Source: Ulva prolifera
Lineage: Eukaryota; Chlorophyta; Ulvophyceae; Ulvales; Ulvaceae
Reading direction: 5' to 3'
Assembly: GCA_023078555.1 (NCBI GenBank)
Contig: CM041196.1
Location: forward strand, 5,715,658-5,779,657
Length of the DNA stretch: 64,000 nt
Shown here: piece by piece, positions 29,923-54,400 of the stretch
Layout of the letters: each line of letters starts with the position of its first letter
Position numbering within the stretch: the stretch's first letter is position 1
The notes under the pieces: generated by a model
Databases searched by the model: none
What the model was told of the DNA's origin: nothing
Seen by the model: only the letters and a program-made list of their open reading frames with translations
Translations under genes and position numbers: made by a program

Positions 29923-32509
29923 ATGGACCTCGACGACGCAGAAGATGAAGTGTTGGTTGAATATCCTTTGTTCTCGTCCAACGAGAAATCTCTATTCTCC
30001 GGTAGTGCTAGCGCCGGTGAAGGCCGCATCAGGTTGGTGAACATGCACTACCCATTACGGTCTCCCATGAGGCCATACAATATATACGACGTGAAAGATG
30101 TTTCCTACAAGCGAAATCACCGTGTGCTGTCCATGACGGTTCCTGAAGACCGTCCAGACATGGTGTGCCTGCCCTTGCCTGAGCTAGTGTCCAGTCAGGC
30201 CTTGTCGAACACACACATCGACCGAGCCCATTTTCAGGCGCACCCCAAGGATATACCATTGACTGGTACCGGTCTTGTACCCGAGGTGCCACTATGCGCC
30301 ATGGTGAAGGTGGAAGGCAGCTGCGTTCTTGTTCCCATTGACGAGGTCACTCGCATGCGGCCAGACATGTCAGCATTCGTCAAAGACGGCCATGTCCGTG
30401 ACAAAGAAGCTGCTGCGGCAGAAGAAGATCCTGATTATAAGCCCAAAACCGCGAAAGCAAAGAAGGCTGATGTCAAGCCCACTTCAAAAGCTGTCAAGGT
30501 ATCGCCACCTTGTCCATCCGTCAGACCAGATCTCCCAGCACCAGAAAGACCAGGCCAATCCAAGGCAGCCCAGATCCAGTGCAGGTGGAGATACAAAAAC
30601 GCGAGACTGAACGACAAGCATTGCTTCGGACCCGGAGTTACACGCACCACCGGGAACAGCTTGCAGCAGAAGAGGCGCTCAAGCTCAAGCCCAACACCAG
30701 CCAGACTCACAACATCCTCACCCGAAGCTGCGCCAAGGTGCTGCAGACGCACCCGGGCGAGGTCGCGATGGGCGTCTCCCGGAAGGAGTACCTGAGGCAT
30801 GCGAGCCCAGCCTTCTGGGTCGTCCGCAGGCCCCAGTGCGCCTCCTCCCCCCTGCACTGCACACCTCCACCTCTTCCTCCCCATCAGCCCATCAGCCCAT
30901 GCCCATCAGCCCATCAGCCCATCAGCCCATCAGCCCATCCTCCTCATCAGCCCAGTACCGACTGCACTGTGCAGCATATGCACGCCCTACGATGCACCAG
31001 CACCAGCAACGCCGCAGCGCTGCGCGTTCCCACCTTGATCCCACAGCCCGTTGCCACGGCCGCCTGGTCACCGGCCACGGCCGTGTGCCGTGAGACGCAC
31101 GCGCCAAGCAGCTGCCGCAGCTGCCGGCACTTGTTGAACAGCTGCCCGACCTCCCGCGCGTGATACATGTGCTGTGCGGCTATCTCCTCTACAATGGGTT
31201 GCATGGATACAACGTCTGGGTCGAGGACGGTATAAAAGCTACCCCCGCTGTTTCAGGAGGTCGTGGGTTCGATTCTGCGTGCGCTTTGGGAAATCGAAGC
31301 GGCCGTGCGTGACCACCTCGCTTAGCACAGGAGGAGGCCCTGTTAGTTGCGGACGGTCGTCTGAGGGAGGTTTCCAGGTGGTTTACCCCTTCAGCATATT
31401 GACTCCCGGTAACCCGAAGTTGTCAGTGTCCAATAGGATACGGCTCAGTAAGTTCAGATTTACTTTACTTTACAATCGCCCGTCCTGGTGTGTTACATGC
31501 ACGCATGCAGACATCACACCAATACAATGCGGCATACACTCCCGCTCCATTGCGGCCCCCCGCCCAGGACCATCGTAATTTTCATCTGATTTGCGTCAAG
31601 CAGCCAGACTGTGTGCTTTGTCTGAATACAGTCGTACCTTTGTGAGGGATCTCATAAAAAAAACATGACGGATCTAGACTTGACCAAAGGCAGGGTCATC
31701 TGCGTGTTGTGGATCCCCCCTCTGCTCACCAATTGCCCCCGGTCTGACAGCCACGTGGCCGTGCAGGCCCGCCACCGCTGCGACGAGCGCGACCGTAGCG
31801 TCTGGCGCAGCGGCGGCGCCGGAGCCGCCCCCGTCGCTGACTGCGGAGTCCCGCAAGGCGCTGGAGGCTGCGCTCGCGGACCTGTTTGCCGACCACCCCG
31901 TCGTGACGATGCGCGACGTGCGCGTGTGGCTGCAGACGTACACGGCCAACGCCAAGGCACGGGTCGCAGCGCTCCAGAGCGACAAGACCCTCTCGGCCCT
32001 CCTCTGCGGCGGCGGCTCGATCGTGCAGATCCGGTGCGGCCCGCACTTGCCGCATGACCACGCAATCATGGCCGTGTACTGGGTCCGCTTTGTAATTGCC
32101 CTTGGAGCGGGGTCGCCGGTGTGCGGGTTGCACCATCACACCGGCCAATCACGTTTCCATCTGTTTGTTGCATCTGTGGTCGGGAGTGGCGTTTGGGCGG
32201 TGCGGCGGTGCTGCGGCGGCGGCGAGCGCAGCGCTTTGTGCGGCATCACAGCACACGTCAGGGGCGACGCTGCGATGCAGGGGGCGCTACATCGTGGCGC
32301 AGGAGGACGACCCGCTGCGGGGGGCGCTGCTGAAGCTGCTGGACGCCCACCCGGATGGCGTGCGCAAGGCGGACGTCGTGGCTGCGATGAAACAGGCAGG
32401 CGTGCAGGCGACCGACCACGCGATCAGCCGCACCCTGCGCAGCCTGTGCGTCGCGGGCGGGGCCGTCTGGCACCTGCGGGATGGCGCCACCTTCTCCAAG
32501 CCACAGTAG
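29923..32509 (+). CDS. RPC5: RNA polymerase III subunit RPC5 (POLR3E)
   Basis: Certain exons are 29923..30498 (ATG start, MDLDDAEDEVLVEYPLF), 30585 to about 30790 (VEIQKRETERQALL), 31767..32033 and 32281..32509 (stop TAG). At least one more exon lies in 31090-31230, where QLPALVEQLPDLPRVIHVL is a candidate. The N-terminal Sin-like domain shows NMHYPLRSPMRPYN, VSYKRNHRVLSM, LTGTGLVPEV and VPIDEVTRMRPDMSAF, as in RPC5 from other eukaryotes. The C-terminal winged-helix pair matches human POLR3E in order (RKALEAALADLF, DDPLRGALLKLLD, LRSLCVAGGAVWHL). RPC5 works with RPC4 as a TFIIF-like pair in Pol III initiation and termination in the nucleus. The penultimate exon ends at a GTGCGG donor. A SINE-like element lies in the intron after 31240. 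The middle of the model is unresolved; the family call is firm. Confidence 0.87.
30885..30955 (+). repeat. Intronic minisatellite, unit cccatcag
   Basis: Seven to eight near-perfect copies of an 8-base unit lie in an RPC5 intron. The run makes open frames rich in Pro, Ser, Ala and His that are not coding. Confidence 0.85.
31242..31476 (+). mobile_element. SINE-like element, copy 1
   Basis: About 235 bp whose sequence recurs inverted at 52151-52376 and in part at 51308-51406. Near the left end is gtgggttcgattctgcg, matching the Pol III B box (GGTTCGANTCC) except at the end, preceded by aggaggtc as in a tRNA variable loop. The right end is a (TTTAC)n tail (tttactttactttac). It is probably a tRNA-related SINE lacking its 5' A-box part. 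It lies in the sense direction inside an RPC5 intron. No clear target duplication was found. Confidence 0.72.
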
Positions 32510-51400: not shown

Positions 51401-54400
51401 TCACTGTTGTACGCACTCGCTTTTGTGGTGATATGCATGGACGGTGCTTGGGTGGCGCTGTCGCTTCGCGGGGTGAGTTCCTTTTTTGTGCAGGAAATGG
51501 TTGTGGACACGCAAGATCCGTTCGCGCTGAACAATTTGCTGCGTGTTAACTTGCAGTCCCGGGAGGATGTGCTTGTGCGCCTAGGCCGCCAACCAGATGT
51601 GTATGAGCAGCTCACTGCTTCACTCGCGCCATCGATCTGGGAGATGGACGATGTCAAGAAGGGCATCCTGTGTCAGCTGTTTGGCGCTGCCACCAAAGTG
51701 CGCCCTCATCACTTTCTGTGCTCCGTTGTAGTGCAGCTGCACACACAATGTGGTCATTAATTCCAGCGACACACTTGCGCAATTGAGAGCAGGCTTGCCT
51801 GTCCGCGGTCGGCAACAGCACATGGCATGTGTGCCATTGATGACCTGCAGCGCGCTGAAATGTGCAGGAGGGAATGAAGGCTCGCAACATGATCAACATT
51901 CTGTTGGTGGGTGACCCCGGTGTATCCAAGTCACAGCTGCTCACGTATGTTCACAAGGTCGCACCTCGAGGGCTTTACACAAGCGGCCGTGGTTCCAGTG
52001 CGGTCGGCCTCACAGCATACGTCACTAAAGATCACGAGAGCCGAGAGCATGTCCTTGAGAGTGGTGCTCTTGTGCTCTCTGACCAAGGCATCTGCTGCAT
52101 CGACGAATTTGACAAGATGTCAGAAGGCGCCCGAGCCATGGTGCGTCCTGTAAAGTAAATCTGAATTTACTGAGCCGTATCCTATTGGACATTGACAACT
52201 CCGAATTAACGGGACCACATATGCCGAAGGGGTAAACCACCTGGAAACCCCCCTCAGACGACCATACGCAACTCACAGGGCCTCCTCCTATGCTAAGCGA
52301 GGTGGTCACGTACGGCCGTTTCGATTCCCCAAAGCGCACGCAGAATCGAACCCACGACCTCCTGAAACGGAGGGGATGCCTCCTGTGATGCAAGTAGATC
52401 CTGGGCACCCTGCATCTGTCGCAGTGCATGCAAATGTTTTTACACATACCCAGGCATTCATGACAGCCGTTGACATGGACCTAGCAGTTGGCTACATTGC
52501 TTTCCATTGCCTCCAATGCTGTTGACATGTCATAAGACAGTCGTATGCATCGTGATGCTTCAAACTGGAAGCGGATCACACTCAGTGCTATCCTGTCGAA
52601 CGTCATTTAAATGTGTTTGGTTGGCTCTGCAGTTGCACGAAGTGATGGAGCAGCAAACAGTGTCGGTTGCCAAAGCGGGCATCATCGCCACCCTGAACGC
52701 CCGTACAAGTGTGCTGGCTGCGGCAAATCCCCGCACCTCCCGGTATGACCCACGGGCGTCTATCGTCGAAAACATCAATCTACCACCATCACTGCTCAGT
52801 CGTTTTGACCTCGTCTACCTCCTGCTCGACAAGGTGCGCAACCCTTCCCGTGCTGTGTTTCACAGCAAACCTGACCAGCAAATCTGCAATGATGACCTGG
52901 CTTCCTGATTGTTGTCCATAGTGTTTTGTTCATTGCAATTTCACTTTCAGGGTGTTGTGCTCTGCAGACAACAATACCATCTCGTGTCTGATGGGCCCCG
53001 TTCCAGAATGTGCCGCTGCAACACATCCTGCACCTTCCGCCAGTGAGGTACTAAGGACAGCACAGCATCATGCGTTCATCTGTCTGCAAGCACATTTGCT
53101 GTGTGACCTTCCTTGTGTGCCAGTGACTGAGCACAGCTGGTAACTTCAGACCTCGTTAAGCGAAGTGACCACTTCTGACCATGCGGCACCGCCTTCTGAA
53201 GCATCTGTAACATCTCAAGACGGTGAAGACACCACAGTCCATGATGATTGCCATGTGACCGTCACTGTGACGCCTTGCTTGACATTGCAGGCGGATGCAT
53301 CACATGATCAGCGTCTCGCGCGGCATCTGGCCTCACTGTACTGGGAGAAACAGCCAGAGAAGACGAGGGCGGCGATCCCCATCGACACCCTGCGGGAATA
53401 CATCGCGTTTGCCCGCAACAAGGTGCAGCCCCGCCTCGGGGAGGAGGCGATTGCGCTGCTGGCGCAAAGCTACCTCGAGATGCGAATGGCCGGCCAGGAC
53501 CCCACTGGCGCCATGAACAGGTACAGCACTGCATCACATCCACCCTGCAAGCATGTCATGCGGCCTCTCCCCAGGCCAGCGCTTGTGAAGTGCCATCTGC
53601 AGCACACACGCCTGCCATCCTGCCGTCATCATGCGCTGTAGGCATGTCCGTATGCATGGCGTCGCCAGTGGAAACGGTTGCCGTGTTTGCAGAGGCATAC
53701 ACTTGTACACACTGGTATGCACTCGAGGCACACTTGTATACACTAGAGGCATACGTTGTTTTTCTGTCCGCCAGAACAAATCGCGACATCGTGGTGTTGC
53801 TGTCATACAGTGGTGTGACTCCATGCCTCGTGCAGGAACGTGATCAGTGCGACGCCGCGGCAGTTGGAGTCGCTGATCCGCCTGTCGGAGTCGCTGGCGC
53901 GGCTGGAGCTGCAGGAGGACGTCGCAGAGCGCCACGTCGCCGAGGCGCTGCGGCTGATGAAGGTGTCGATGCAGCAGAGCGCGATGGACCATCGCACGGG
54001 CATGATCGACATGGACAAGCTGTACTCGGGCGTGGGCGCGCTCGACCGGGAGATGCGGCGGCATCTGGCCACCGCGATCTCAGAGCTCCTCATTGGTGTG
54101 CTTCCCATGCAGCTGCAGTCTGCATGCCCCTGCAAGTGGAGCATCAGTTGATATATCGCTCGTGTTCGCTAGCAAGAAGTTGGGTTGTTGCAACATGCGA
54201 TCGACAGATCTGATTTGTCTACCGACTGACACTTGCATGGCAGTGTGTTGATGTGCGCAACGGATAACGTCAGCGGTGACTGTAGTTGGACTGGGAGCCT
54301 GTGCATCAGCATCTTCATAGGCGGTGCTTGATATGGTCGTGGAGTGCTGCTTGTGCGTTCATGACTTCAAGCGGGTCTGTTCGACAGCTGCAACATCACG

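Follow-up and report, generated by a model that had tools for sequence, protein, structure and literature searches.

The stretch analysed here, referred to throughout as the window, comprises 64,000 nucleotides of the green alga Ulva prolifera (assembly GCA_023078555.1, CM041196.1, or contig 1, positions 5715658-5779657, from a genome of 88.9 Mb in 44 contigs). It carries three copies of a dispersed short interspersed element (SINE) whose 3' end consists of TTTAC units, placed in or near genes for the proteins MCM4 and RPC5. An original prediction, made from these letters, described the three stretches as homologous members of an abundant, tRNA-related family, all of them intronic, and proposed to look for a long interspersed element (LINE) with a matching 3' tail. 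Here we report the extent, abundance and insertion pattern of the family, and describe a LINE with which it shares its 3' core, a block that in the LINE forms the end of the open reading frame.

Results

Three copies of one SINE family and their gene context

Copies 1 and 3 align with each other over 226 nt at 90.7% identity (31243-31468 on the forward strand against 52375-52150 on the reverse strand, E 2e-85), and copy 2 aligns in its 3' part only (51308-51399, forward strand; 72-80%, E 2e-7 to 1e-15). Together with the TTTAC units at the end of all three, this confirms that they belong to one dispersed SINE-like retroposon family, as had been predicted. Measured against a family consensus of 265 nt built from aligned genomic copies, copy 1 (31196..31473, forward strand) is near full length, with 91% identity to consensus positions 8-265, alignable sequence from 31217 and a (TTTAC)3 tail at 31459..31473. 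Copy 2 (51311..51401, forward strand) is old and 5'-truncated, covering consensus positions of about 172-264 at 78.7%, and copy 3 (52150..52375, reverse strand) is truncated at consensus 34 and 98.7% identical to the consensus. The predicted homology stood, and the predicted 5' end had to be moved: the consensus reaches 32 nt farther upstream, and copy 1, which has an additional partial head unit in its 5' part, starts at about 31196, adjoining its target duplication. No tandem array was present at any of the three copies.

The exons that flank copies 2 and 3 were delimited by eye, and their joined translation matches MCM4 chains in the PDB with a best E of 1e-84. The strong match (query 98-293) runs continuously over the exon junction at copy 3, which lies antisense in an MCM4 intron. 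Another MCM4 intron very likely holds copy 2, since this copy is flanked by the strong stretch and, in the correct order, by a weak match upstream (8.8 bits). Copy 1 is located within or next to an RPC5-like gene, behind exons (29833-31160) that match RPC5 at 24.5 and 26.7 bits with a cut-off of 23.1; the frames downstream of it resemble the RPC5 C-terminus by eye and gave no PDB match. An intronic position for every copy is thus borne out for copy 3, very likely for copy 2 and unproven for copy 1. RPC5 is a subunit of RNA polymerase III (Pol III), the polymerase expected to transcribe a SINE, and its nearness to copy 1 is probably a coincidence.

A Pfam search of 52 open reading frames of the window, which has a G+C content of 57%, recovered MCM, RPC5, a GAS-type microtubule-binding protein, KAS III, DUF3119, IPP transferase and an EGF domain. 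These genes are in keeping with a photosynthetic lineage that has flagellate cells, as green algae are, and the base composition fits as well. Elsewhere in the window, a 1.5-kb G-rich tandem array of GGGGTCCGCCGG-related units with long overlapping open frames occupies positions 12245-13767.

The family is abundant and mostly 5'-truncated

A genome search with copy 1 yielded 1600 candidates; the 40 that were scored, copy 1 included, are 230 nt or longer, with 91-100% identity, and are dispersed over 10 contigs, so that the window copies are far from standing alone. Thirty of these 40 scored loci, copy 1 among them, were aligned; this set is biased because its members were picked by their likeness to copy 1. 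The search thus brought up both near-full and full-length copies and led to the consensus. An exact 24-mer of the SINE head occurs 94 + 91 times (185) in the genome, and its backward control 0 + 0 times.

Copy number was estimated from 20 stretches of 10 kb at preset positions on contigs 1 to 9 (200 kb). Ten places match the consensus at E 0.001 or better, one of which (L048) is the LINE described below; the remaining nine SINE copies extrapolate to about 4,000 in the whole genome (95% Poisson range 1,800-7,600), or 0.49% of bases, in keeping with the predicted abundance. Each of the nine reaches consensus 259 or further, and eight have lost their 5' part, with truncation points from consensus 101 to 238. 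On contig 1 up to 11.7 Mb we counted 70 distinct exact SINE cores with a TTTAC tail, 16 of which have the exact head at the expected distance; the exact tail is missing for 13 of the 29 exact heads. Five of 43 SINE copies are 100% identical to the consensus over their aligned part, which indicates recent SINE activity.

Target duplications begin at AC

Target duplications, as sought by the original prediction, are present at all three window copies. Copy 1 is flanked by ACAAT on the left (31191..31195) and on the right (31472..31476), where the AC is common to the duplication and the tail end; copy 2 is flanked by CACTGTT (51304..51310 and 51402..51408, both pairs on the forward strand). For copy 3 the duplication reads, on the element (reverse) strand, ACAGGAGGCA on the 5' side (52377..52386) and ACAGGACGCA on the 3' side (52142..52151), the two being identical at 9/10 positions. 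The first letters of the duplication are AC for copies 1 and 3 and CAC for copy 2, and each time it overlaps the tail end. The copy 3 duplication (52141-52151) also starts at intron base 2, right behind the MCM4 splice donor, the border having been set by eye.

For 43 SINE copies whose tail end could be read, the flanks match over 5 bp or more in 17 cases, compared with 6.1% of mispaired flanks. The mean flank match was 3.60 against 2.63 for mispaired flanks, a mean that was reached in 0/5000 permutations. The scan started at the last four tail letters and accepted exact matches only; every match of at least 5 bp includes the tail's final C because of this starting point, and the duplication of copy 3 escaped the rule through its one mismatch. 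Microhomology of AC between target and tail, along with the loss of 5' ends, characterises target-primed reverse transcription by LINEs, and it is to this process that the short duplications starting at AC and the frequent 5' truncation point.

At five loci (L005, L009, L013, L021 and L022), partial head repeats, in GGGTCCAAT units, were seen by eye upstream of the element 5' end, and in copy 1 (31196-31222) a 15-nt filler separates two GGGTCCAAT-type starts, also by eye. These repeats look as if the reverse transcriptase had copied the 5' end of the RNA more than once.

The head carries a B box

A B-box-like motif, GGTTCGATTC, is found in copy 1 (31266..31275, forward strand) and copy 3 (52343..52352, reverse strand) and is a family-wide feature; it matches the B-box consensus of Pol III promoters. 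In the SINE head this exact B box is accompanied by a tRNA-like variable region, AGGTCGTGGGTTCGATTC. Upstream of it, a D-arm-like GTCC..GGAC and TGGGTTGAGG could be made out by eye, matching the A-box consensus weakly. When the head was compared with 16 yeast tRNAs, the highest local score was 30 (Phe), equalled by 3/300 shuffles. An origin from class II tRNAs (Ser/Leu) was rejected, since the local scores to those tRNAs of yeast did not stand out from the level of shuffles. The consensus fold shows no tRNA cloverleaf. Of the predicted tRNA origin the B box is clear, and the A box remains weak in the full-length copies that do exist; with moderate confidence we regard the head as tRNA-related.

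A LINE family with a 1574-residue frame

A PF14529 profile search of the genome gave 25 matches from 26 candidates, all of them scored, and 11 of the 25 places carry the same frame of 1574 amino acids. Behind 23 of the 25, a match to a reverse transcriptase fragment follows within 2.5 kb. PF03372 gave 29 matches from 37 candidates, likewise all scored, 22 of which overlap PF14529 places; the LINE family with the 1574-residue frame is the source of most APE-type endonuclease matches in this genome. The element carries both an APE endonuclease (PF14529, PF03372) and a reverse transcriptase, of which a fragment of 167 amino acids matches RVT_1 at 3e-17. Against the PDB, this fragment scores best with three entries named R2 (5e-18 to 8e-18), followed by RNA-directed DNA polymerase, Reverse transcriptase-like protein (8e-10) and L1 ORF2 (1-2e-9). 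Two LINE copies that were probed show identity at +2600, +3000 and +3300 and none from +3500 on. Viral contigs gave no match for the SINE head, the core or the LINE reverse transcriptase fragment.

The LINE ends in GGTCCCGGATTTCGGAGTTGTCAATGTCCAAATGGATACGGCTATGTAATCATACATACA, which in the endonuclease/reverse transcriptase frame reads ...SVPDFGVVNVQMDTAM, a TAA stop and then a (CATA)n tail. LINE core with CATA tail was found in 35 forward and 74 reverse rows, in which several tail ends per copy are counted; contig 1 holds 17 distinct ends of this kind. In a comparison of 19 reverse transcriptase places among 37 rows, core and CATA tail lie behind the fragment in 15 copies, at 1991 (13), 1998 (1) and 2007 (1) nt, and 4/19 are without them.

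In a wider RVT_1 search of the genome, at least 150 places of 452 candidates were found, with recurring frames of 1357, 1334, 1627, 1633 and 1702 amino acids that suggest several young retrotransposon families, probably of the long terminal repeat type; one Gypsy-like reverse transcriptase was recognised by eye in L048 (1-1200). At another locus, L014 (2459-2556), a long near-perfect inverted repeat, which matched a microRNA model below its cut-off (49 of 98 bits), is likely a hairpin resembling a miniature inverted-repeat transposable element.

SINE and LINE share a 3' block that ends at the LINE stop codon

The SINE 3' part and the LINE 3' end are identical in 43 of 50 columns, one column being a gap, and score 63, compared with a maximum of 26 in 1000 shuffles. 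The block corresponds to 15 codons plus the stop of the LINE frame, up to GTAA, and ends on the stop codon in 3/3 copies checked; it is the end of the LINE open frame, not a 3' untranslated region (UTR). Because the frame is open there, this end would be translated up to the stop. Upstream of consensus 193, no LINE homology was seen in the SINE, in a comparison that covered the smaller part of the LINE letters. Of the predicted LINE with a matching 3' tail, the core is found and the tail is not, and the pairing of the two elements rests on the shared core.

Within the block, the consensus fold draws a hairpin, GAGUUGU-CAAU-GUCC-loop-GGAU-ACGGCUC. It lies at 31417..31446 in copy 1 (forward strand), where the end of the LINE frame is its homologue, at 51342..51372 in copy 2 (forward strand) and at 52172..52201 in copy 3 (reverse strand). 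Over 22 aligned rows the hairpin pairs in 94.2% of cells, compared with 30-46% in slid controls. The loops vary and the stem is near-constant, which is a better hint for the hairpin than the pairing statistics.

Discussion

The SINE described here was probably moved by the enzyme of the LINE with the 1574-residue frame, through a hairpin captured from the end of that frame. In the sequence of events that we propose, a SINE RNA of about 265 nt, probably made by Pol III from the internal B box and the weak A box, would begin near GGGTCCAATGGG and finish with the hairpin followed by (UUUAC)n. The block containing the hairpin would have been copied from the end of the frame that encodes the APE endonuclease and reverse transcriptase, and the LINE protein would bind it and nick DNA at AC/TAC sites. 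The nicked end would then pair with the terminal UAC of the RNA, and reverse transcription would follow, with duplications of about 4-10 bp starting at AC and many 5'-truncated copies as the expected outcome. The LINE's own (CATA)n tail likewise contains UAC at its end, and the repeat unit may have been free to change because this terminal UAC is common to both tails.

A more specific version seems to us quite possible, if somewhat short of probable: that the recognition hairpin of the LINE is coding and ends at the stop, with no 3' UTR except the tail, and that the SINE took this coding end, swapped CATA for TTTAC and kept the UAC that pairs with AC, so that the enzyme would recognise the hairpin plus the three terminal bases rather than the repeat unit.

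Several observations weigh against the proposed events as a whole. The tail repeats are unequal, (TTTAC)n in the SINE and (CATA)n in the LINE, and exact patterns run over the genome returned 0 LINE-type cores with a TTTAC tail and 0 SINE-type cores with a CATA tail, in a search that mutated hybrids would escape. Flank matches are shorter than 5 bp in 26 of the 43 SINE copies, so that many duplications are short, decayed or missed by the exact-match rule. Since the hairpin is derived from the SINE consensus itself, it has an advantage over its slid versions, and the 22 rows contain a single compensatory change (G-C to A-U, in copy 2). Letter shuffles equal the hairpin in 83/500 cases for paired cells and 127/500 for double changes, and its covariation score in 35/500; the alignment is thus compatible with the hairpin and no proof of it. 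Finally, the Rfam tRNA model found no match to the head in 7 full SINE copies at E 5.

The unequal tails and the absence of exact hybrids in either direction leave room for a different partner, namely a (TTTAC)n-tailed sister LINE that was lost, has decayed or was missed, with the 1574-residue LINE sharing the block by descent. A few decayed reverse transcriptase pieces at 76-81% identity, some of them within copies that are otherwise 97-98% identical, would fit such a sister, as would the 7/29 PF03372 places outside the 1574-residue family and a second LINE-type reverse transcriptase motif beside one LINE copy. This motif, QGDPISPLLFALA, seen by eye at locus L055 (C3:1731678-1731717) about 1 kb behind that copy, indicates that another retroelement family is present. 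On the other hand, 23/25 PF14529 places go with the reverse transcriptase of the 1574-residue LINE, and its recent activity is suggested by 11 copies of a single frame length; the SINE's partner must itself have been active recently, given SINE copies identical to the consensus. Among 32 reverse transcriptase or endonuclease places on contig 1, just one has a TTTAC-tailed exact core less than 9 kb behind it, at 8.1 kb, with about 0.9 expected; we rejected this tail as a partner signal and attribute it to chance. Two further candidates, a TTTAC-tailed form of the 1574-residue LINE and a CATA-tailed SINE, were set aside at 0 exact occurrences each, with patterns that had no strict positive control. 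On balance we consider a sister LINE an unlikely partner, though one to be taken seriously.

Still less likely is an origin without a tRNA, by which the SINE would be an internally deleted or chimeric LINE derivative or another retroposed RNA, with a B-box match due to chance or acquired secondarily. The silence of the Rfam model, an A box that is poor by eye and a fold without a cloverleaf speak for it. It has to contend with the exact B box next to AGGTCGTGGGTTCGATTC, with a best score to the yeast tRNAs that so few shuffles equalled, and with the lack of visible LINE homology upstream of consensus 193 in the part of the LINE that was compared. A DNA transposon derivative, or a piece of a longer repeat or array, is hardly credible and was rejected, nothing having come up in its favour: the flanks of the 30 aligned loci share nothing past the consensus ends by eye, no array exists at the window copies, and the simple-repeat tail, the duplications overlapping it and the 5' truncation all speak against it.

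We know of no case in which the block shared by a SINE and a LINE is the end of the LINE reading frame. In the UnaL2/eel SINE pair, one tail repeat is common to both elements and the hairpin lies in the 3' UTR, whereas here the repeats differ and the hairpin is inside an open frame. The LINE described here resembles RandI/Dualen LINEs in having an APE endonuclease and a reverse transcriptase, Dualen LINEs having two endonucleases, and it may differ from L1-clade LINEs, its reverse transcriptase fragment scoring best against R2 and less against L1. In other respects the present pair is like UnaL2 and the eel SINE, a 'stringent' pair (PMC3747384), in its hairpin and short 3' repeat and in a SINE that borrows the LINE 3' end.

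Among green algae, Chlamydomonas reinhardtii has SINEX-1 to SINEX-6, with RandI-2, RandI-5 and L1-1 as partners in the parts of Ohshima 2013 (PMC3747384) considered here, and the Ulva family is like these in sharing its 3' end with a LINE of the same genome. The green-algal SINE tails given there are (ATT)n, (CTTT)n and (A)n; a TTTAC tail appears in none of these parts of the tables. SINEX-2 has a (CTTT)n tail and RandI-2 (RandI-3) as its partner, while tails in the RandI group are (ATT)n and (CTATTT)n, so that unequal tails may have a precedent. The (CATA)n end of the Ulva LINE also has a counterpart, since Table 3 of that study, as we interpret it, includes (CATA)n tails among green-algal L1 elements. 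No description of this SINE family was found in the open literature searched, and a search on TTTAC returned no paper on algal SINEs, judged by title; the family may well be catalogued in Repbase or in the subscription journals, most of which, like Repbase, lay outside the search. We regard it as a further SINE of known type, of interest for a 3' signal that would be coding in the LINE and for its altered tail.

This SINE/LINE pair separates the shared hairpin from the tail repeat, and it therefore becomes possible to ask which of the two the LINE enzyme reads, a question that underlies the distinction between 'stringent' and 'relaxed' recognition in plants. A translated hairpin would mean that one set of 15 codons and a stop is constrained in the LINE at both the protein and the RNA level. 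A paper on Ulva compressa (PMC9266709) puts unknown repeats at 15%, and its text makes no use of the word SINE; SINE families such as this one may account for part of the unclassified repeats of algae.

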